From Cryobacterium shii (lineage in GTDB: Bacteria; Actinomycetota; Actinomycetes; Actinomycetales; Microbacteriaceae): a stretch of 64,000 nt of DNA. The notes beneath the pieces were generated by a model. That model searched no databases and was not told where the DNA came from. It saw nothing but the letters and a program-made list of their open reading frames with translations. A program made the translations under genes and the position numbers. The DNA lies in the NCBI RefSeq assembly GCF_004402595.1, contig NZ_SOFY01000014.1, positions 1 through 64,000 on the forward strand, read 5' to 3'. Below, in pieces: positions 4,035-15,057 of this stretch (its first letter is position 1; each line of letters starts with the position of its first letter).

Positions 4035-6221
4035 TCAGCCCCGGGACGGGGTGACGAACCGCTGCCAGGCCCACGCGCCGACGCTGAGGGCCGCGAAGAC
4101 CCCGGCGGCCACCCCCAGCAGGGTCACCGTGCCGTCACCGTTCCAGATCGCGACGGCCGGGGACAGCACCCCGAACATGATCGTGAACGCGAGCGTGGTC
4201 AGTCCCGCCCAGATCGACGGTGACCAGGCCAGGATGCTGCGCCCGCTCGTGCGCCCGATCGGGATCAGCACGAGCGCGACCGAGCCGATCGCCGTCAGCA
4301 CCACGCTGTTGGCGATTTCCGCACCGAGCGAGCTGAGGAAGCCGTCGGCCGTCGGCAGGAGGCCGAGCGCCAGCCAGCCGGCCGTACTCAGCCCGATCAG
4401 GCTGCCGGCCCGCACGGCCGCGATCTGCCCGCGCTCGGGGTTCAGCGCGCCGGGGGTCGCCGCGACGGAGCCCAGCAGCCCGAAGACGAGCGCCGGGTGC
4501 ACCTCGAAGAGGCGGGAACCGAGGGCGGTCACCGCGACCAGCAGCAGGTAGCGCGGCAGGAACGTGACGGATGCCGGCACCCGGCAGATCCGGGAGCTCC
4601 ACCACAGCGGAACGAGCGCACCGACCCCGTTCACCACGATCAGGGCCACCATCACGGCGAGCAGCAGCCGCAGGTAGGCCGGCTGGCTGGTGACCGGGCC
4701 GGACAGCATGATCAGGGTCGCCGCCGCGGCGAGGGCCGCGCCGGCGACGAGCCACCGGTTGACGGCCACGTCGGGCGCGGTCTCGTACTCCTGCCGGGCC
4801 CGGTTCCGGCCCGCGATGGCCGTGCCCGGCCAGACCGGGCGGCCGCCCCGGGACCGGGAGAGGGTCCCGGCCAGCAGGCGGGCGGGAACGTACAGCAGCA
4901 TCAGGGAGCCCAGGGACAGCAGCACGGCCTGGGACCAGGACAGCCCGGACGGCGACCAGGGCGGCAGAACCGCGGTGGCGAACCGGGTGGGGTCGCTCCA
5001 GCCGCCCGGCAGCGCGCCGAGCGCCACCGCCTCGTCGCCGTCCCGCTGCGAGGGCGTCGCCGTCTGCGGGCTCCGGGCCGGTTCCGGCGCGGGCGCCGCG
5101 GTCGCGGTCGCGGCGGCGAGTGGAGCGGATGCCCGCGGAGAGGGGGTCGCCCGGCCGGCGGCCGGTGCCGGTGCGGCCGGGCCGTAGGCGAGGGTGAAGG
5201 CGGGGCTGCCCTGGCCCACATTGCCCGCGGCATCCTGCTGCACCGCGATCACGGCGTACGAACCGGCGGCCACGCCGCCGGCGGAACAGGTCCAGGAGCC
5301 GCCGGCGACGACGCCGCTGCAGACCGAGTACGCGCCCGCGAAGACCGTCACGGTCGAACCGTTCTCCCCGGAACCGGCGTAGGTGGCCCGGTCCAGCGGC
5401 ACCCGTCCGCCCGCGGCCGGCTCGGTCACGGTCGGCGGCGCGGGCCGGTCGACGTCGAACAGGAGGGCGATGGCGGCGCTCTCGTTCGACCAGGAGGGCA
5501 GGCTGAAGGTGGCCTGCTGGGCTGCCGTGACCTCGGCGGCCCCGCTGGCAAGGCGCCCGCCGAATGCGCAGGTCCAGGCGCCGGAGGTGTCGGCCGTCGC
5601 CGTGCAGCGATTGCCGTCGGCCAGGCGGACGATGACGGATGCGTTCGGGTACGCCGTCCCGCGCACCACGCCGTTCGATGCCGCCTGGCCGCTCGGCCCG
5701 CCGGTCACGACCGGTGCGGCCAGCACGGCGATGGTCTGCTCCGCGGCGAAGGCCGGGTCGGCGGTGACCACGACCCGCAGCCGCACCGACGGGCCGCTGG
5801 GCAGGCGCACCCCCGTGCAGCTCCACTCCGAGGAGTCGTCGACGACCAGGATGCAGGACGGGTCCTCGCCCGGGAACGCCGACAGGAGCTGGATCTCCTG
5901 GCCGGGCTCGCCCGTGCCGGAGACGGTGGTGCTGCCGCTGCCGACGAAACTGCCCGGCCGTGGACCGGTGATCGTCGGTGAGACGGTGGGCGGCGCCGAC
6001 GACCGGGTCGGCGCCGGTGTCGCTGCGGGGGTCGCTGCGGGGGTCGGCGCGGGGGCCGGCGTGGGGGAGGAGGTGGCGGCGACCGCGGACCCGACGGAGC
6101 CGCCCGCCAGGAGGGCCGGAACGAGGAAGCCGAGCAGAAGGACCCCTGCAAGGAGACGGCCGGCGCGGTAGGACCGACGGGCCCGCGATGAGCCCGATCC
6201 GGTGAAGCGTGTCCCAACCAT
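4035..6221 (-). CDS. Large secreted/membrane protein with Ig-like repeats and about nine TM helices
   Basis: This protein has 728 residues. A basic N-terminus is followed by a signal anchor (about 22-48), a Pro/Ala/Thr-rich linker (50-80), and about three bacterial Ig-like units (roughly 80-350), each with paired cysteines near a Trp (SEWSCTG, GAWTCAFG, GSWTCSAG). A second Pro/Ala-rich linker (350-410) leads into a C-terminal half with eight to nine hydrophobic helices (from about 428). The start at 6221 has a GGGGGG-A3 ribosome site. I do not recognise the membrane domain. The extracellular Ig-like part suggests surface binding or adhesion; the membrane half could anchor or transport. It ends convergently against the broken response regulator. 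Confidence 0.75.
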   Translation of the reverse strand: MVGTRFTGSGSSRARRSYRAGRLLAGVLLLGFLVPALLAGGSVGSAVAATSSPTPAPAPTPAATPAATPAPTRSSAPPTVSPTITGPRPGSFVGSGSTTVSGTGEPGQEIQLLSAFPGEDPSCILVVDDSSEWSCTGVRLPSGPSVRLRVVVTADPAFAAEQTIAVLAAPVVTGGPSGQAASNGVVRGTAYPNASVIVRLADGNRCTATADTSGAWTCAFGGRLASGAAEVTAAQQATFSLPSWSNESAAIALLFDVDRPAPPTVTEPAAGGRVPLDRATYAGSGENGSTVTVFAGAYSVCSGVVAGGSWTCSAGGVAAGSYAVIAVQQDAAGNVGQGSPAFTLAYGPAAPAPAAGRATPSPRASAPLAAATATAAPAPEPARSPQTATPSQRDGDEAVALGALPGGWSDPTRFATAVLPPWSPSGLSWSQAVLLSLGSLMLLYVPARLLAGTLSRSRGGRPVWPGTAIAGRNRARQEYETAPDVAVNRWLVAGAALAAAATLIMLSGPVTSQPAYLRLLLAVMVALIVVNGVGALVPLWWSSRICRVPASVTFLPRYLLLVAVTALGSRLFEVHPALVFGLLGSVAATPGALNPERGQIAAVRAGSLIGLSTAGWLALGLLPTADGFLSSLGAEIANSVVLTAIGSVALVLIPIGRTSGRSILAWSPSIWAGLTTLAFTIMFGVLSPAVAIWNGDGTVTLLGVAAGVFAALSVGAWAWQRFVTPSRG

Positions 6222-6379: not shown

Positions 6380-7654
6380 ATGAGCGCACCGAACCTACTC
6401 GCGGGCTCCGGCTCCGGCTCCGTCTTCGCCGAACCGAACCGGCGCGTTCCCGGGCGCTGGATCGCCGTCTTTGCGACGGCCTGGCTCGGCATCTGGATGG
6501 CGCAGCTCACCCCGGTGCAGCTCCTCCTGCCGGCCCAGATCGACCGGCGCCTCCAGCCCGAGAATTGGGTGGACAGCGTCGTGGCCTTCGGCGTGATCTC
6601 GGGCATCGCCGGCCTGTGCGCGATCGTGGCCTACCCGCTGACCGGGGCGCTGTCCGACCGCACGACCTCCCGGTTCGGCCGTCGCCGACCCTGGATCGCC
6701 GGCGGGGCGGTGCTCTTCGCGGCCGCCCTGCTGCTGCTCGGCGCGCAGACCACCATGCTGGGGATCGGGTTCTTCTGGGCGCTCGCCCTGACCGGTTTCT
6801 GCGTGATGACGGCCGCGCTCACCGCCACCATCTCGGACCAGGTCCCGGTCGACCAGCGCGGGTACGTGTCCGGCTGGCTGAGCGCCCCGCAGGCGGTGGG
6901 CATCATCGTGGGCCTGCTGCTCGTGACGATGCTGTTCACCGGCCAGTTCGCCGGCTATTTGGTCGTAGCGGTGCTCCTGCTGGTCCTGGCGGTTCCGTTC
7001 CTGCTGCTGCCCGACGCGGTGCTCCAGCCGCACCAACGCGCGCCGGTGACCGTGCTGGGCCTTCTGTCCAGCCTCTGGATCAGCCCGCGGGAGCACCCCG
7101 ATTTCGGCTGGACCCTGCTCAGCCGGGTGCTGGTCAGCTTCGGCAACGCGTTCGGCACGACCCTGCTGCTCTACTTCCTGATGTTCGGGCTGAACGACGA
7201 GAATGCGGAAGACGACCTGATCCTGCTCACCCTCGTCTACATGGTGTTCGTGATCCTGGCGTCGATCTTCCTGGGCCGGTGGAGCGACGCGCTGGGCATC
7301 CGCAAGGGCTTCGTCTTCGTCGCCGCCGGCCTGCAGGGGTTCGCGGCGCTGCTGCTCGCCTTCATCCCCGACCTGGGCGTCGCGATGGTGGCCGCCGGCA
7401 TCCTCGGTCTCGGCTACGGCTGCTTCCTCTCCGTCGACCAGGCGCTGGCCACCCAGGTGCTGCCCGACCCGGCCGCCCGCGGCAAGGACCTCGGCATCAT
7501 GAACATCGCCACCGCGGTGCCGCAGGCGCTCGCGCCGCTGCTGGGGGCGTTCACGGTCGCCGTGGGCGGCGGCTTCCAGGCCCTGTTCGTGCTCGCGGGC
7601 CTCTGCGCCTTCGGCGGGGCCCTCGCGGTCACCCGGGTGAAGGCGGTGCGCTGA
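6380..7654 (+). CDS. MFS transporter (GPH/sugar-like)
   Basis: This 424-residue polytopic carrier has about twelve hydrophobic segments and the MFS loop 2-3 signature GALSDRTTSRFGRRRPW, the form seen in sucrose/glycoside-cation symporters. The start is ATG at 6380, just before the first TM (residues about 28-48); longer in-frame extensions are not membrane-like. It is the first gene of a four-gene unit in which each stop overlaps the next start. The operon partners (PLP enzyme, FAD oxidase, GH1-fold protein) suggest that it imports or exports a glycoside or sugar-derived compound, but the substrate is not readable. Confidence 0.85.
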   Translation: MSAPNLLAGSGSGSVFAEPNRRVPGRWIAVFATAWLGIWMAQLTPVQLLLPAQIDRRLQPENWVDSVVAFGVISGIAGLCAIVAYPLTGALSDRTTSRFGRRRPWIAGGAVLFAAALLLLGAQTTMLGIGFFWALALTGFCVMTAALTATISDQVPVDQRGYVSGWLSAPQAVGIIVGLLLVTMLFTGQFAGYLVVAVLLLVLAVPFLLLPDAVLQPHQRAPVTVLGLLSSLWISPREHPDFGWTLLSRVLVSFGNAFGTTLLLYFLMFGLNDENAEDDLILLTLVYMVFVILASIFLGRWSDALGIRKGFVFVAAGLQGFAALLLAFIPDLGVAMVAAGILGLGYGCFLSVDQALATQVLPDPAARGKDLGIMNIATAVPQALAPLLGAFTVAVGGGFQALFVLAGLCAFGGALAVTRVKAVR

Positions 7655-8889
7655 TGGGCCTCGACCTCGGCTCCCGGCCGGCGTCGCAGCCCTGGCTGAC
7701 CCCCGGGCAGTACTGGCCCGGACTGACCGCCGCCACGGCGCAGCTGGAGACCCCCGTCGCCGCCCTGCACCTGGACGCGCTGCGGCACAACACCCGGTCC
7801 CTCCTCGGTCGTGCGGGCGGCACCCCGATCCGGGTGGCGACGAAGTCGATCCGGGTGCGCGGCGTGATCGAGGCCCTCCTGACCCTCCCCGGTTTCCAGG
7901 GGGTCCTCGCGTACACGCTCGCCGAGGCGCTCTGGCTGGCCGAGACGGTGACGGATGTCGTCGTCGGCTACCCCACGGCCGACCGGTCCGCGATCCGGCG
8001 GCTGGGCACCTCGCCACACCTGGCCGCGACGGTCACGCTGATGATCGACTCGGTCGCGCAGCTGGACGAAATCGACGCCGTGCTCCCGCCGGCCGGCCGG
8101 GCCCCGATCCGGGTCTGCCTGGAACTCGATGCCGCCTGGGACGCCCCGGTGCTCGGCCACCTGGGCGTGTGGCGCTCGCCCGTGCACACCCCGGCGGATG
8201 CCCGCAGCCTTGCCGCCGCCGTCGTGGCCCGGCCCGGCTTCTCCCTGGTCGGCCTGATGGCCTACGAGGCGCAGGTGGCCGGAATCGGCGACCGCCCGGC
8301 CGGCAAACCGGTGCAGGGGCGGGTCAACCGCTGGGTGCGGCGGCGGTCCGTGGCCGAGATCGCGGACCGGCGCAGCGCGGCCGTCGCCGCGGTGCGCGAG
8401 ATCGTCGCGCTCGAGTTCGTGAACGGGGGCGGGACCGGTTCGCTGGAGACCACCCGCGCCGACGCATCCGTCACCGACATCGCCGCCGGCAGCGGCTTCT
8501 TCGGCGGGCACCTGTTCGACCACTACGCCAGTTTCCGGCCCGCGCCGGCCGCCGCGGTCGCCCTCTCGATCGTGCGCAAGCCGAGCCCGGCCACGGGTAC
8601 GCTGCTCGGTGGAGGCTGGGTGGCCTCCGGGGTGCCCGGCCGCGACCGCCTGCCGCGCCTGGTCTGGCCGGAGGGCCTGCGCCTGATGCCGCGGGAGATG
8701 GCCGGCGAGGTGCAGACCCCGCTGACCGGGCCCGGAGCGGCCGGCCTCTCCGTCGGCGACCGGGTCTGGCTGCGGCACGCCAAATCCGGGGAGCTGAGCG
8801 AGCACGTGAACGAATTCGCCCTGGTCGACAACGGGCGGGTGGTCGACATCCTGCCGACCTACCGCGGCGAGGGGAAGGCCTTCCTGTGA
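7654..8889 (+). CDS. Alanine-racemase-fold PLP enzyme (D-threonine aldolase/D-amino acid deaminase-like)
   Basis: The 411-residue protein has an N-terminal alanine-racemase-type TIM barrel with the presumed PLP lysine K64 in RVATKSIRVRGV, then a C-terminal beta domain (from about residue 285) with a metal-site-like HAKSGELSEH near residue 371. Proteins of this type are usually annotated amino acid deaminase/aldolase or DSD1-like D-serine dehydratase. The start shares one base with the stop of the MFS gene, and its own stop overlaps the next GTG. The reaction in this operon is unknown. A PLP enzyme beside a sugar oxidase suggests handling of an amino sugar or an amino-acid conjugate, which is inference. 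Confidence 0.8.
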   Translation: MGLDLGSRPASQPWLTPGQYWPGLTAATAQLETPVAALHLDALRHNTRSLLGRAGGTPIRVATKSIRVRGVIEALLTLPGFQGVLAYTLAEALWLAETVTDVVVGYPTADRSAIRRLGTSPHLAATVTLMIDSVAQLDEIDAVLPPAGRAPIRVCLELDAAWDAPVLGHLGVWRSPVHTPADARSLAAAVVARPGFSLVGLMAYEAQVAGIGDRPAGKPVQGRVNRWVRRRSVAEIADRRSAAVAAVREIVALEFVNGGGTGSLETTRADASVTDIAAGSGFFGGHLFDHYASFRPAPAAAVALSIVRKPSPATGTLLGGGWVASGVPGRDRLPRLVWPEGLRLMPREMAGEVQTPLTGPGAAGLSVGDRVWLRHAKSGELSEHVNEFALVDNGRVVDILPTYRGEGKAFL

Positions 8890-10199
8890 GTGCGAGCGGA
8901 GGGGTCTGGACCAACTGGGCCCGCAACCAGAGCGTGCGGCCGGTGCGCGTCGAACGGCCCCGCAGCGTCGGCGCCGTGCAGCGCGCGGTGGTGTCGGCCG
9001 GGAAGGCCGGGCTGCGGATCAAGGCGGTGGGGTCCGGGCACAGCTTCTCCGCGATCGCGGTGGCCGGCGGCGTGCAGCTGGACCTGCTCGACCTGGCCGG
9101 CCTGATCAGCGTCGACCCGGTTCTGGGCCGGGTCACGCTCGCCGCCGGCACCCGCCTGTTCGAGCTGCCGCGGCTGCTCGAACCCCACGGCCTGGCCCTG
9201 GCGAACATGGGCGACGTGGACCGGCAGACGATCTCCGGCGCCACCTCCACCGGCACGCACGGCACCGGCGGCCGTTTCGGCGGCCTCGCCACCCAGATCA
9301 CGGCCCTCACCCTGGTCACCGGCGACGGCACCCTGCTGCGCGTGAGCGAGACCGAGAACGCCGAGCTGCTCCCGGCGGCCCGGCTCGGGCTCGGGGCGCT
9401 GGGCATCCTGGTGGACCTGACCCTGCAGTGCGTGCCCGCGTACCTGCTGCGCGCCGTCGAGGCCGCCGAACCCCTCGAGGAGGTGCTGGACACCTACCTC
9501 GATCGGTCGGAGAACCCCGACCACTTCGAGTTCTACTGGTTCCCGCACACGGACACCGCGCTGACCAAGACCAACACCCGACTCCCGGCGGACGCGGGCC
9601 GGTCCCCGCTCGGCCGGGTCTCCCGCTGGGTCGACGACGAACTGCTCGCGAACGGGGCCTACCGCGCCATCTGCGCGCTCGGCCGGCTGGTGCCCCCGGC
9701 GGTGCCCCCGTTCAACCGGCTCGCCACCCGCCTCAGCGGCCGGCGTGAATTCACGGATGTCTCCAACCGGGTGTTCGTGACCCGCCGCACGGTGCGCTTC
9801 CGGGAGATGGAGTACGCCCTGCCGCGCGAGCAGGTGCCGGCGGCGCTGCGCGAGGTGCGGGCCCTGATCGAGGAGCGCGGCTGGCGGATCTCCTTCCCGA
9901 TCGAGGTGCGCTCCGCGGCGGCCGACGCCCTGTGGCTCTCCACCGCCAGCGGGCGGGACACCGGCTATATCGCCGTGCACCGCTACTTCCGGGAGGACCC
10001 GACCGAGTACTTCGACGCGGTGGAAGCGATCATGCGCGCGCACGACGGGCGCCCGCACTGGGGCAAGCTGCACGACCGGGACGCGGACTCGCTGCGCCAG
10101 AGCTACCCGCACTTCGGCGACTTCCTCTCGGTGCGTGACAGGCTTGATCCGGAGCGCCGCTTCAGCAACAGCTATCTGGAAAGAGTTTTGGGTCGATGA
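8886..10199 (+). CDS. FAD-linked oxidase, D-arabinono-1,4-lactone/L-gulonolactone oxidase family
   Basis: The 437-residue protein has an N-terminal PCMH-type FAD-binding domain carrying VGSGHSFS (residues 49-56), whose His52 is the position that covalently binds FAD in aldonolactone and alditol oxidases. The C-terminal ALO domain has the family signature HWGK at 391-394 and ends DPERRFSNSYL. Such enzymes oxidise sugar lactones or alditols and usually pass electrons to oxygen or a quinone. The GTG at 8886 overlaps the previous stop (GTGA), and the stop overlaps the GH1-fold gene start. There is no signal peptide, so it is cytoplasmic. A sugar-type substrate for the operon is a reasonable inference. 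Confidence 0.88.
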   Translation: MSASGGVWTNWARNQSVRPVRVERPRSVGAVQRAVVSAGKAGLRIKAVGSGHSFSAIAVAGGVQLDLLDLAGLISVDPVLGRVTLAAGTRLFELPRLLEPHGLALANMGDVDRQTISGATSTGTHGTGGRFGGLATQITALTLVTGDGTLLRVSETENAELLPAARLGLGALGILVDLTLQCVPAYLLRAVEAAEPLEEVLDTYLDRSENPDHFEFYWFPHTDTALTKTNTRLPADAGRSPLGRVSRWVDDELLANGAYRAICALGRLVPPAVPPFNRLATRLSGRREFTDVSNRVFVTRRTVRFREMEYALPREQVPAALREVRALIEERGWRISFPIEVRSAAADALWLSTASGRDTGYIAVHRYFREDPTEYFDAVEAIMRAHDGRPHWGKLHDRDADSLRQSYPHFGDFLSVRDRLDPERRFSNSYLERVLGR

Positions 10200-11665
10200 G
10201 CACCAAGCCAGTCAACAGCAACACCCCCGCGGCGCGCGCCTGGGAACACCGGGCCGCAGAGTTGGGCGACCGGCTCCCGGACGGTTTCGTCGTGGGCACG
10301 GCCACCTCCGCCTTCCAGATCGAGGGCGGGGCTCGCGAGGGCGGACGCGGGGAATCGAGCTGGGACCCGTTCACGGCGGCGACCGGCCGCATCCGTGACG
10401 GTTCGAACGCCTCGGTGGCGACCGACCACTTCACCCGGGTCGACGACGACGTCGTCCTCCTCCGCGAACTGGGCGGTGACGCGTACCGGTTCTCGCTGGC
10501 CTGGTCGCGGGTGCAGCCGGACGGCCGCGGGGCGCTCAGCCGCGCGGGCCTGGCGTTCTACGACCGCCTGCTCGACGGCCTGCTCGCGGCGGGTATCAGC
10601 CCGATGGCGACGCTGTACCACTGGGACACCCCGCTGAAACTCCGCGGAGGCTGGCTGAACCGCGACACCGCGATGCGGTTTGGTGACTACGCGCACCAGG
10701 TCGGCGAGGCCTTCGGGGACCGGATCGATTCCTGGGTGACCCTGAACGAGCCCGCGACGGTGACCCTGAACGGCTATGCCCTGGGCACCGACGCGCCCGG
10801 GGAGGCCCGGCTCTTCGGTGCCCTGCCGGCCGCCCACCACCAGCTGCTCGCCCACGGCCTCGCCGTGCAGGGGCTCCGCGCCGCCGATGTGCGCGGCGGC
10901 ATCGGCATCGCCAACGCGCACTCGCCCGTGCAGGCCGCCAGCGGCCGGGAAGCCGACGAGGTGGCGGCGCAGCTGTTCGACGTGCTGCACAATCGGATGT
11001 TCGCCGACGCGGTCCTGCTCGGCCGCTACCCGGAACCGCCCGAACCGTACGCGGTCCCGCTGCGGCTGCTGCTGGAGACCGACCCCGACGACCTGCGCAC
11101 CATCCGGCAGCCGCTGGACTTCTACGGCCTCAACTACGTGCAGCCGTCCCGGATCAAGGCCGGCCCGGCCGCGCCGAAGACCCCGCAGGGTCCGCCCCGG
11201 GAGGGGCCGGCCGAGACGGTGGTCGCGTTCCCCTTCCACGTGATCCCGTTCCGCGAGTTCCCGGTGACCGGGTCCGGCGCCGCCATCGCCCCGGAGTACC
11301 TCGGCGTGGCGCTGGGCGAGCTGCGGGACCGCTACAGCGACGACCTGCCGCCGGTGTACGTCACGGCCGGCGGCGCGGCCTTTCCCGACGTGGCCGACAA
11401 GTGGGGAGCCGTGCACGACCCGGCCCGGATCGACTACCTCGCCGAGCACCTCACGGCCGCGCTCGCCGCGGTCGCCCCGGGCGGCACCGCGGCCGGGGTC
11501 AGCCTCCGCGGCTACTTCATCTGGTCCCTGCTGGACAGCTTCGAGTGGACGGCCGGTTACACCCGCCGGTACGGGCTCGTGCACGTGGACTTCCTCGACG
11601 GAACCCGTCCCCGCACGCCCAAGTCCTCCTACCGCTGGCTGCAGAAGGTGCTCGCCGCCCGCTGA
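10196..11665 (+). CDS. GH1-family protein lacking the catalytic nucleophile
   Basis: This 489-residue protein is clearly GH1 (beta-glucosidase) over its full length. It keeps Gln41 (FQIEGG), His142 (YHWDTP), the acid/base Glu185 in TLNEP, the FYGLNYV motif and the -1 subsite Glu450-Trp451 (DSFEWTAGY). The motif that should carry the nucleophile, T-E-N-G, reads T-A-G-G here: the codon at 11366-11368 is GCC, giving Ala391. A retaining glucosidase cannot work normally without that glutamate. The protein may bind glycosides, use an external nucleophile, or act on a substrate already oxidised by the neighbouring FAD oxidase. It is the last gene of the operon. Confidence 0.87.
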   Translation: MSTKPVNSNTPAARAWEHRAAELGDRLPDGFVVGTATSAFQIEGGAREGGRGESSWDPFTAATGRIRDGSNASVATDHFTRVDDDVVLLRELGGDAYRFSLAWSRVQPDGRGALSRAGLAFYDRLLDGLLAAGISPMATLYHWDTPLKLRGGWLNRDTAMRFGDYAHQVGEAFGDRIDSWVTLNEPATVTLNGYALGTDAPGEARLFGALPAAHHQLLAHGLAVQGLRAADVRGGIGIANAHSPVQAASGREADEVAAQLFDVLHNRMFADAVLLGRYPEPPEPYAVPLRLLLETDPDDLRTIRQPLDFYGLNYVQPSRIKAGPAAPKTPQGPPREGPAETVVAFPFHVIPFREFPVTGSGAAIAPEYLGVALGELRDRYSDDLPPVYVTAGGAAFPDVADKWGAVHDPARIDYLAEHLTAALAAVAPGGTAAGVSLRGYFIWSLLDSFEWTAGYTRRYGLVHVDFLDGTRPRTPKSSYRWLQKVLAAR

Positions 11666-13372: not shown

Positions 13373-13593
13373 TCCTGCATTATTCGCCCGTGCTGCGGGA
13401 ATGTCGATCAACCGCCGGGGCGATTCTTGGAGTCTGATGGGAAGCGGATGGGAGCCTCAGGACGCGCGGTTATGATGGTTACGAACTGCGAGTACGCCTC
13501 CGAGGCGAGCTTGTTCAGTCCGTGTCTCCTCTCTCAAACACAAGCTCAATCGCCCGCTCAGAATTGCCTCACCCGTCTCAAGGAGAAGCTGCC

Positions 13594-14160
13594 ATGGAAT
13601 GGCTCATCCCGGTCCTCATCATCGTTGTACTCGTCGCCATCGTCGGGATCTACCTGTGGGCTACCTACAATTCCCTCGTCACGCTCAAGGTTCGCGTCGA
13701 CGAGGCGTGGAGTGACATCACGGTGCAGATGAAGCGGCGGGCCGACCTGATCCCCAACCTGATCGAAACGGTCAAGGGCTACGCCGCGCACGAGAAGGCG
13801 GTCTTCGAGAACGTCACCAAGGCGCGCGCCGAGTCGCTTAGCGCGCAGGGCCCGGCCGAGGCCGCCGCCGCGGAGAACCACATGCAATCCGCCCTGCGCA
13901 GCATCTTCGCCGTCGCCGAGGCCTACCCGCAGCTGCAGGCCAGCCAGAACTATCTGCAGCTCCAGGCCGAGCTGGTCGACACGGAGGACAAGATCCAGGC
14001 GTCACGCCGCTTCTACAACGGCGGCGTGCGCGAGCTCAACACGAAGATCCAGGTCTTTCCCAACAACCTGATCGCCCGCAATCTCGGTTTCACCCAGCGC
14101 GATTTCTTCGAGGTGTCCGACTCCGCCGCCATCGCGGAGCCGCCTCGCGTGCAGTTCTAG
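13594..14160 (+). CDS. lemA: LemA family protein
   Basis: The product is 188 residues: an N-terminal TM (about 4-25) preceded by a very short outside segment, then a helical-bundle domain with the family signatures YNSLVTLKVRVDEAWSDI and RRADLIPNLIETVKGYAAHE, ending in the FYNGGVRELNT and FPNNLIA motifs. AAGGAG lies nine bases before the ATG. It is followed 12 bp later by htpX, a pairing seen in many bacteria, and is thought to act with membrane quality control. The exact function of LemA is not known. Confidence 0.93.
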   Translation: MEWLIPVLIIVVLVAIVGIYLWATYNSLVTLKVRVDEAWSDITVQMKRRADLIPNLIETVKGYAAHEKAVFENVTKARAESLSAQGPAEAAAAENHMQSALRSIFAVAEAYPQLQASQNYLQLQAELVDTEDKIQASRRFYNGGVRELNTKIQVFPNNLIARNLGFTQRDFFEVSDSAAIAEPPRVQF

Positions 14161-14172
14161 CGGCCGGCCGAT

Positions 14173-15057
14173 ATGTACAGCGCGATAGCGCGCAATAAGC
14201 GCAACACGGTCTTCATCATCATCCTGTTCCTGGTGATGATCGCGGGCCTCGGCTGGCTCGCCAACTATGTCTACAGTCCTCCGGGCAGCTACGGCATCCT
14301 GATCATGACGATCGTGATCGCCTCCGGCTACGCCCTGGTGCAGTACTTCATGGCCGGCCGCCAGGCGGTTGCCCTGAGCGGTGGAGTGCGCCTGAACAGC
14401 AAGGCGGAGAATCCGCGGCTGTGGAACATCGTCGAGAACCTGTCGATCACGACCGGCACCCCGATGCCCGAGATCTACGTCATCAACGACCCGGCCCCGA
14501 ACGCCTTCGCGACCGGCCGCGACCCCCGACACGCGATCGTGGCGGCCACCACCGGGCTGCTGGAGATCATGACCGATTCCGAACTCGAGGGCGTCATGGC
14601 GCACGAGCTCGGGCACGTGCGCAACTACGACATCCGGGTGTCGATGGTCGTCTTCGGGCTGGTCGTCGCCGTCGGTTTCATCTCCGACATGTTCCTGCGG
14701 ATGGCGTTCTTCGGCCGCGACAACAAGAACGGCAACCCGGTCGTGATGGTGTTCGGGCTGGTCGCCATGGTCGTGGCGCCGTTGGTGGCCAGCATGGTGC
14801 AGCTGGCCGTGTCCCGTCAGCGCGAATACCTGGCGGATGCGACGAGCGCGCTGACCACCCGCAACCCGGACGCGCTGGCCAGCGCCCTGGCCAAACTCGA
14901 GACCTACGCCCGGCCGATGCGCAAGCAGAACACGTCGATGGCGCACCTCTGGATCGCCAACCCGCTGAAGCCGGGCGCGATGGCGAAGCTGTTCAGCACG
15001 CATCCGCCGATCGAGGAACGGATCGAACGCCTGCACACCATGGGCCGCAAGTTCTAA
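14173..15057 (+). CDS. htpX: M48 membrane metalloprotease HtpX
   Basis: The protease has 294 residues, two N-terminal TMs (about 13-33 and 42-60), the zinc site HELGH at 144-148 facing the cytoplasm, two further hydrophobic segments (about 156-175 and 188-208), and the third ligand region QREYLADATSA. It degrades misfolded membrane proteins. It lies directly downstream of lemA and is probably co-transcribed with it. A strong hairpin follows the stop. Length and motifs are normal for the family. Confidence 0.95.
   Translation: MYSAIARNKRNTVFIIILFLVMIAGLGWLANYVYSPPGSYGILIMTIVIASGYALVQYFMAGRQAVALSGGVRLNSKAENPRLWNIVENLSITTGTPMPEIYVINDPAPNAFATGRDPRHAIVAATTGLLEIMTDSELEGVMAHELGHVRNYDIRVSMVVFGLVVAVGFISDMFLRMAFFGRDNKNGNPVVMVFGLVAMVVAPLVASMVQLAVSRQREYLADATSALTTRNPDALASALAKLETYARPMRKQNTSMAHLWIANPLKPGAMAKLFSTHPPIEERIERLHTMGRKF

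Follow-up and report, generated by a model that had tools for sequence, protein, structure and literature searches.

Four co-directional genes in a 64,000-nucleotide stretch of the Cryobacterium shii genome (contig NZ_SOFY01000014.1, positions 1 to 64,000; hereafter the window) encode a major facilitator superfamily (MFS) carrier, a fold-type III pyridoxal phosphate (PLP) protein, a covalent-FAD oxidase of the ALO family and a protein of glycoside hydrolase family 1 (GH1). On balance, and judging from sequence comparison, we favour the view that they form an inducible uptake-and-conversion operon whose β-glucosidase would by now be a maintained non-catalytic protein. An original prediction for this DNA had taken the genes for one operon-like unit of these four families; the open reading frames (ORFs) indeed all lie on the + strand with tight joins, and Pfam and NCBIfam bear out each assignment. 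It had further proposed that the oxidase removes the need for the catalytic glutamate of the GH1 protein, a proposal to which we return below.

The GH1 protein belongs to the GH1 fold family, with a full-length Glyco_hydro_1 match of 415.3 bits against a gathering threshold of 22.6, and it resembles GH1 β-glucosidases (TIGR03356; for example PDB 8znv and 8in1) along its whole length (best 8znv, E 4.8e-129). It differs from them in having lost the nucleophile glutamate and the equivalent of Tyr295, and it stays under the TIGR03356 β-glucosidase cut-off (448.3 versus 478.5; an intact operon relative, in genome G247, scores 506.9). Active GH1 β-glucosidases have an acid/base glutamate in N-E-P and a nucleophile glutamate in T-E-x-G. 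The window protein retains the former (E185, in TLNEP) and has alanine (A391) at the position of the latter, with valine (V315) at that of Tyr295; residue numbers such as Tyr295 and Trp398 follow the Thermotoga enzyme. Where intact relatives read T-E-(G/S/N)-G the window reads VTAGG, so the absence of a nucleophile that had been read from the window itself holds up against its relatives.

We then place this protein within its cold-loving genus. Counting the window genome and using a threshold of 1e-100, GH1 is found in 55 of 57 Cryobacterium genomes, ALO in 39 and MFS in eight; the MFS gene is thus dispensable. The 55 GH1 loci read MFS-PLP-ALO-GH1 (8), PLP-ALO-GH1 (24), ALO-GH1 (6) or GH1 alone (17), the last meaning no genome-wide ALO or MFS match at that threshold and no PLP gene in the stretch read. 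A genome-wide PLP search in three of these 17 solitary-GH1 genomes (G195, G210 and G243) gave none among the matches listed. The two remaining genomes have ALO alone (G239) or none of the genes (G250). In 11 of the 55 loci, including those of both genomes with an intact GH1 active site, MFS or PLP is directly preceded by a TetR gene; the window operon, unlike these 11, has no TetR gene just upstream. By our own ORF calling, an FGLLP-type membrane protein adjoins GH1 in 13 of the 17 solitary-GH1 genomes and an ABC-2 permease in 12.

The nucleophile glutamate is missing from 46 of the 51 usable Cryobacterium GH1 rows, G198, G204, G212 and G246 being excluded from trees, residue counts and dN/dS (the ratio of nonsynonymous to synonymous substitution rates) since their GH1 is cut, broken or carries an insert. 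The residue in its place is Ala (21 rows), Leu (17), Val (3), Thr (2), Ser (2) or Gly (1), and the acid/base position of the same 46 rows holds E in 24, D in 20, S in one and Q in one. Five rows keep the nucleophile. The active site is wholly intact in G200 and G247 alone, the other three (G220, G221 and G249) having already lost the equivalents of Tyr295 and Trp398. In all 17 solitary genes the loop reads LSLAGG, and the leucine at the nucleophile position is written by four different codons. Because 46 of 51 rows lack the nucleophile, the name β-glucosidase is likely wrong for these GH1 genes in most Cryobacterium. Some species of the genus are β-glucosidase-positive (PMC10067761). In other genera seven of 41 GH1 rows are nucleophile-less; four of them (G258, G333, G447 and G492) come from the 34 operon loci, and in the others (G399, G442 and G523) no PLP or ALO gene was read, these three clustering on the tree with operon-bearing relatives.

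On that tree, built without the columns at six active-site positions by a quick search that leaves several forks open, and omitting L002 and the duplicates L016–L019, the nucleophile state changes at least seven times. If the residue was never regained, the losses would number six or seven. Further changes are seen between Trp and Arg at the Trp398 position (at least seven) and at the Tyr295 position (at least five). We note that the Trp398 position corresponds to W443 of the window protein, and that Trp→Arg arises several times, with four Arg codons in Cryobacterium. The exchange could be an adaptation to an anionic ligand, or merely mutational bias.

Purifying selection on the nucleophile-less GH1 persists. 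Over pairs with dS between 0.05 and 1.5, median pairwise dN/dS is 0.199 in the 12-genome clade of the window (66 pairs) and 0.127 among the 17 solitary genes (136 pairs), with 0.150 in 65 intact genes; the values for ALO and PLP in the window clade are 0.257 and 0.281. No internal stops were flagged in the Cryobacterium GH1 rows read. An intact ancestor, lost catalytic residues and a gene kept by selection, as expected of a pseudoglycosidase, which would also be devoid of catalytic activity, are all found for the window GH1. The pocket has lost its extra constraint. In intact genes the ratio of nonsynonymous to synonymous differences (pN/pS) is 0.023 in active-site segments versus 0.217 in the rest (115 pairs with pS 0.25–0.5), whereas it is 0.259 versus 0.259 in the window clade and 0.175 versus 0.167 in the solitary clade; the six segments (58 codons) were picked from known GH1 motifs after the alignment had been viewed, and the pooled pairs are non-independent. 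The active site of the pseudo-GH1 is therefore under no special constraint, while the fold as a whole is still constrained.

These values bear directly on plain decay, in which GH1 is dispensable and slowly vanishing. In four Cryobacterium genomes the GH1 row is truncated, broken or interrupted by an insert (at contig ends in G198 and G212; also G204 and G246), parts of the genus have lost MFS, PLP and ALO, and the window genome has a second GH1 with TENG (L002), all of which would suit such a process. However, dN/dS of 0.13–0.20, retention of GH1 in 55 of 57 genomes and fixation of a new loop motif in every solitary genome argue for a gene in use, and since GH1 is the last gene of the operon there is no polarity reason for keeping it. 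We regard decay as improbable.

The gene might also be kept as a sensor or lectin that binds a sugar or acid through the old −1 subsite, with Trp398→Arg adapting it to an anionic ligand, for instance the product of the oxidase. The repeated changes at that position and the several Arg codons are what this idea would lead one to expect, and the glycone-side residues Q41, H142, E450 and W451 are unchanged in 46 of 46 nucleophile-less rows. However, 162 columns are invariant in ten intact GH1 rows and 97 of these are unchanged in all 46 pseudoenzymes, so that four of four retained residues do not exceed chance (P 0.125). Moreover, the pocket segments change no more slowly than the remainder of the protein, a single transition in GC-rich genomes suffices for TGG→CGG, and Trp is kept in the 17 solitary genes and in the window. 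A sensor or lectin thus seems unlikely to us, and kept sugar binding was set aside as the cause of the conservation.

A natural glycosynthase or transglycosidase, in which a small residue replaces the nucleophile and the acid/base glutamate acts on an activated α-glycosyl donor, would account for part of the residue pattern. Ala, Gly and Ser at the nucleophile are known replacements in engineered glycosynthases, and the window keeps its acid/base residue. The presence of Leu, Val and Thr at the same position in other rows, the drift of the equivalents of Y295, N165 and N293, and a pocket without extra constraint make this explanation scarcely credible.

The proposal that oxidation makes the glutamate dispensable can be put more exactly: the flavin oxidase would produce a keto, lactone or uronic glycoside, which the GH1 protein would cleave by acid/base-assisted elimination with no need of a nucleophile. 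Several features agree with it, namely the co-directional genes with conserved tight joins, the acid/base glutamate kept in the window and in G235, a gatekeeper glycine that suits an O2-using oxidase (below), a Glu-less GH1 in 29 of the 34 Cryobacterium loci that have ALO and could be used, and no Glu-less GH1 among 65 rows from non-operon loci (L020–L085 except L060); the last two raise its odds slightly. If oxidation had made the glutamate needless, its loss should track the oxidase, and no clean tracking is seen. Outside Cryobacterium, 30 of 34 operon loci, from 14 of 15 genus codes, combine the oxidase with a GH1 that has both glutamates (among these 30, the protein of G490 lacks other active-site residues), and inside the genus a fully intact GH1 lies beside the oxidase in G200 and G247. 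Conversely, 17 of the 57 Cryobacterium genomes have a Glu-less GH1 and no oxidase, so that, on gene presence, the GH1 protein does not depend on the oxidase. In 22 of 46 rows the acid/base glutamate that elimination requires is gone or replaced by a shorter residue, the nucleophile has been replaced by six different residues, and the pocket is free of special constraint. Cleavage of an oxidised glycoside is accordingly disfavoured by the Glu-bearing operons outside Cryobacterium and the oxidase-free Glu-less genes, and we consider it very improbable.

Several observations weigh against our preferred reading of a maintained non-catalytic protein. When clades are mixed, GH1 dN/dS exceeds that of ALO in 375 of 538 matched pairs (dS 0.05–1.2; medians 0.300 versus 0.269), and constraint on GH1 is therefore the weaker in that comparison. 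The four unchanged glycone-side residues could mean retained sugar binding, although their retention is no more than chance (P 0.125, as above), and since the window GH1 retains its acid/base glutamate there is room for residual chemistry. With no Glu-less rows from non-operon loci, glutamate loss was met only in lineages that bear the operon or descend from bearers, which speaks for some tie between the operon and the loss; a partial tie of this kind fits a GH1 that was at first a non-catalytic partner inside the pathway and later became independent. Finally, the further neighbours of the operon fail to reveal the pathway: among 20 proteins compared by Pfam and 12 by homology (two in both), TetR recurs and the rest are mostly lineage-specific.

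The original prediction was to be dropped if the gene order proved unconserved in related genomes. The neighbourhood comparison instead found the PLP-ALO-GH1 order in 34 of 40 other-genus GH1 loci, spanning 15 genus codes beyond Cryobacterium. Relatives of the window locus were the best 80 of 375. Of 299 genomes in the wider family, the PLP protein (E 1e-80) is present in at least 152 and GH1 (E ≤1e-130) in 55, six of the latter being Cryobacterium. We sampled 40 of the 49 others, PLP-proximal loci first, so that 34 of 40 is a biased rate; by coordinates, PLP lies near GH1 in 35 of the 49 among the matches listed. The 40 loci read TetR-MFS-PLP-ALO-GH1 (27), MFS-PLP-ALO-GH1 (5) or PLP-ALO-GH1 (2), and six are without PLP and ALO, among them G399, whose 3.9-kb contig is too short to judge. 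Because the order recurs across Cryobacterium and other Microbacteriaceae genera, the operon architecture is real and old. In one locus (L293, genome G287) a tandem GH1 pair follows ALO, both copies with two glutamates.

The PLP-ALO pair reaches further than the operon. The PLP protein occurs in 89 of 197 genomes of the class, with ALO no more than 2.7 kb away in at least 31 of the 89, in either gene order and with the two genes in the same or opposite orientation. ALO is strongly matched in 85 of the 89 genomes, versus 16 of 108 genomes without PLP, among the matches listed (Fisher P about 2e-33, uncorrected for relatedness). The adjacency input consisted of hand-copied PLP hits and strong ALO hits, and the tally of 16 ALO-only genomes was likewise made by hand. 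Tsukamurella, Arthrobacter and Burkholderia stagnalis replicons carry the two genes next to each other, and on a Mycobacterium riyadhense plasmid a single gene separates them. The pair on B. stagnalis plas1 (L257) lies outside Actinomycetota, and so the PLP-ALO pair crosses phyla; an AraC-like stretch is found some kb off. The Arthrobacter and Tsukamurella plasmid pairs (L255 and L256) are near annotated NCS2 / SLC23 permeases, a possible hint at the substrate; these permeases gave no match to each other or to the other compared loci at 1e-8. In two genomes, G117 and G094, the stretch read contains TetR-MFS-PLP-ALO but no GH1; neither appears in the GH1-bearing set, and we infer that GH1 joined the PLP-oxidase module later.

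The window oxidase belongs to the aldonolactone/alditol oxidase group and passes TIGR01679, a family of bacterial FAD-linked oxidoreductases (412.3 versus a cut-off of 292.25), and fails TIGR01678, the sugar 1,4-lactone oxidases (243 versus 396.8). All 31 aligned sequences share the histidine of GSGHSF, the ExR pair and HWGK without exception; in the window protein these correspond to His52, the FAD-linking residue by homology, to E340/R342 and to HWGK394. A glycine at the gatekeeper position of such enzymes predicts reaction with O2. Since Gly109 aligns with gatekeeper A113 of GALDH, an alanine in the parent enzyme (8qmy) that glycine replaces in the A113G variant (8qnc), the protein is predicted to be an O2-using oxidase. 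The active-site serine of the alditol oxidase AldO, Ser106, is absent from the window oxidase, whose aligned residue, Asp110, is invariant in 31 of 31 sequences. The covalent-FAD histidine and the ExR and HWGK motifs are shared with TIGR01679 oxidoreductases, with AldO (2vfr) and with aldonolactone oxidoreductases, which carry an HWXK motif (PMC11505616); the aspartate, where AldO has serine, and the gene-order tie to the PLP protein set the window oxidase apart.

The PLP protein is a distant relative of two aldolases, with weak matches to D-threonine aldolase (4v15, 8.1e-07) and BhcC (6qkb, 1.7e-09), with which the fold-III domain and the PLP lysine region are common, and it scores 45.3 against the NCBIfam cut-off of 690 for BhcC. 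At least 90% of 42 aligned sequences share K64. D-threonine and D-3-hydroxyaspartate aldolases bind metal through a C-terminal HxC/HxD motif. Unlike them, the window protein has no HxC/HxD near its C terminus in the 42-sequence alignment, and TYRGEGK is found there instead. A homologue in G183 (L157:7765-8940) reads T-A-A for T/S-K-S, losing the catalytic lysine with much else conserved, and is possibly a second pseudoenzyme, this time in the PLP family.

Taken together, the window genes would be the remnant, with TetR gone, of a Microbacteriaceae operon TetR-MFS-PLP-ALO-GH1. Its carrier may import a small hydroxylated compound, perhaps glycosylated, which TetR would sense; the original GH1 would have taken off a β-glycosyl unit, and the PLP enzyme and O2-using flavin oxidase would act on the remainder in consecutive or coupled steps. 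A PLP/oxidase-core operon may thus have recruited a working β-glucosidase, which in several lineages, that of the window among them, probably no longer cleaves glycosides. The pseudo-GH1 may have acquired a second role through its overall fold or surface, as a subunit, scaffold or regulator, and in at least one clade that role would be independent of oxidase, PLP enzyme and carrier, because GH1 outlives all three in 17 genomes.

GH1-like proteins that lack catalytic residues and are kept for another function are already known. Klotho (PMC7828330) is an animal GH1-like pseudoglycosidase that forms part of a receptor binding FGFs (fibroblast growth factors). The present case differs in that it concerns a bacterial operon protein whose nucleophile was lost repeatedly and independently within a single family, and an operon-borne bacterial GH1 pseudoenzyme of this kind is a new variant. 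We tentatively entertain a bolder version, in which about six independent conversions made a β-glucosidase into a dedicated non-catalytic component, a bacterial counterpart of Klotho acting as scaffold or regulator and serving first the PLP/oxidase pathway and later something else in a Cryobacterium clade. The literature searched, mostly without subscription papers, yielded no paper on an MFS-PLP-ALO-GH1 operon, and as far as it shows no pathway has been described for the PLP-oxidase pair. This widespread pair is annotated as 'alanine racemase' or 'amino acid deaminase/aldolase' plus 'D-arabinono-1,4-lactone oxidase'. The series from intact to eroded to solitary GH1 captures a parallel change from glycosidase to pseudoenzyme within one bacterial family, with intact controls from the same operon, and makes the function of a glycosidase after it has ceased to cut directly testable.

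The features of the window operon are collected in Table 1. Four-base overlaps had been predicted throughout; they are present at PLP/ALO and ALO/GH1, but MFS and PLP share one base only. Among loci in which both ends could be placed, the PLP/ALO four-base join is shared by 30 of 31 from elsewhere in Cryobacterium and by 15 of 18 from other genera. The carrier has a weak GPH-sucrose resemblance, under the cut-off.

Table 1. Genes, joins and related features of the window operon
Feature	Position	Strand	Remarks
MFS carrier, 424 aa, ATG start	6380..7654	+	MFS_1 1.1e-30 (Pfam), MFS_2
Fold-type III PLP protein	7654..8889	+	Ala_racemase_N 8e-09 (Pfam); putative PLP lysine K64
Covalent-FAD oxidase (ALO), GTG start	8886..10199	+	ALO 2.6e-75 and FAD_binding_4 1.3e-26 (Pfam)
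GH1 protein, 489 aa	10196..11665	+	Glyco_hydro_1 3.1e-124 (Pfam)
MFS/PLP stop/start overlap, 1 base (TGATG, shared base 7654)	7652..7656	+	
PLP/ALO stop/start overlap, 4 bases (GTGA)	8886..8889	+	
ALO/GH1 stop/start overlap, 4 bases (ATGA)	10196..10199	+	
Former nucleophile loop codons T-A-G-G	11363..11374	+	A391 codon 11366-11368; Glu in intact relatives
Ig-like / FGLLP-type membrane protein, large, divergent from operon	4035..6221	-	match under cut-off

A promoter and terminator scan of the window operon gave no signal above shuffles. Downstream of the operon, the ORFs at 13522-14160 and 14173-15057, which we take to resemble lemA and htpX, have relatives in 15 and 16, respectively, of 16 loci compared.

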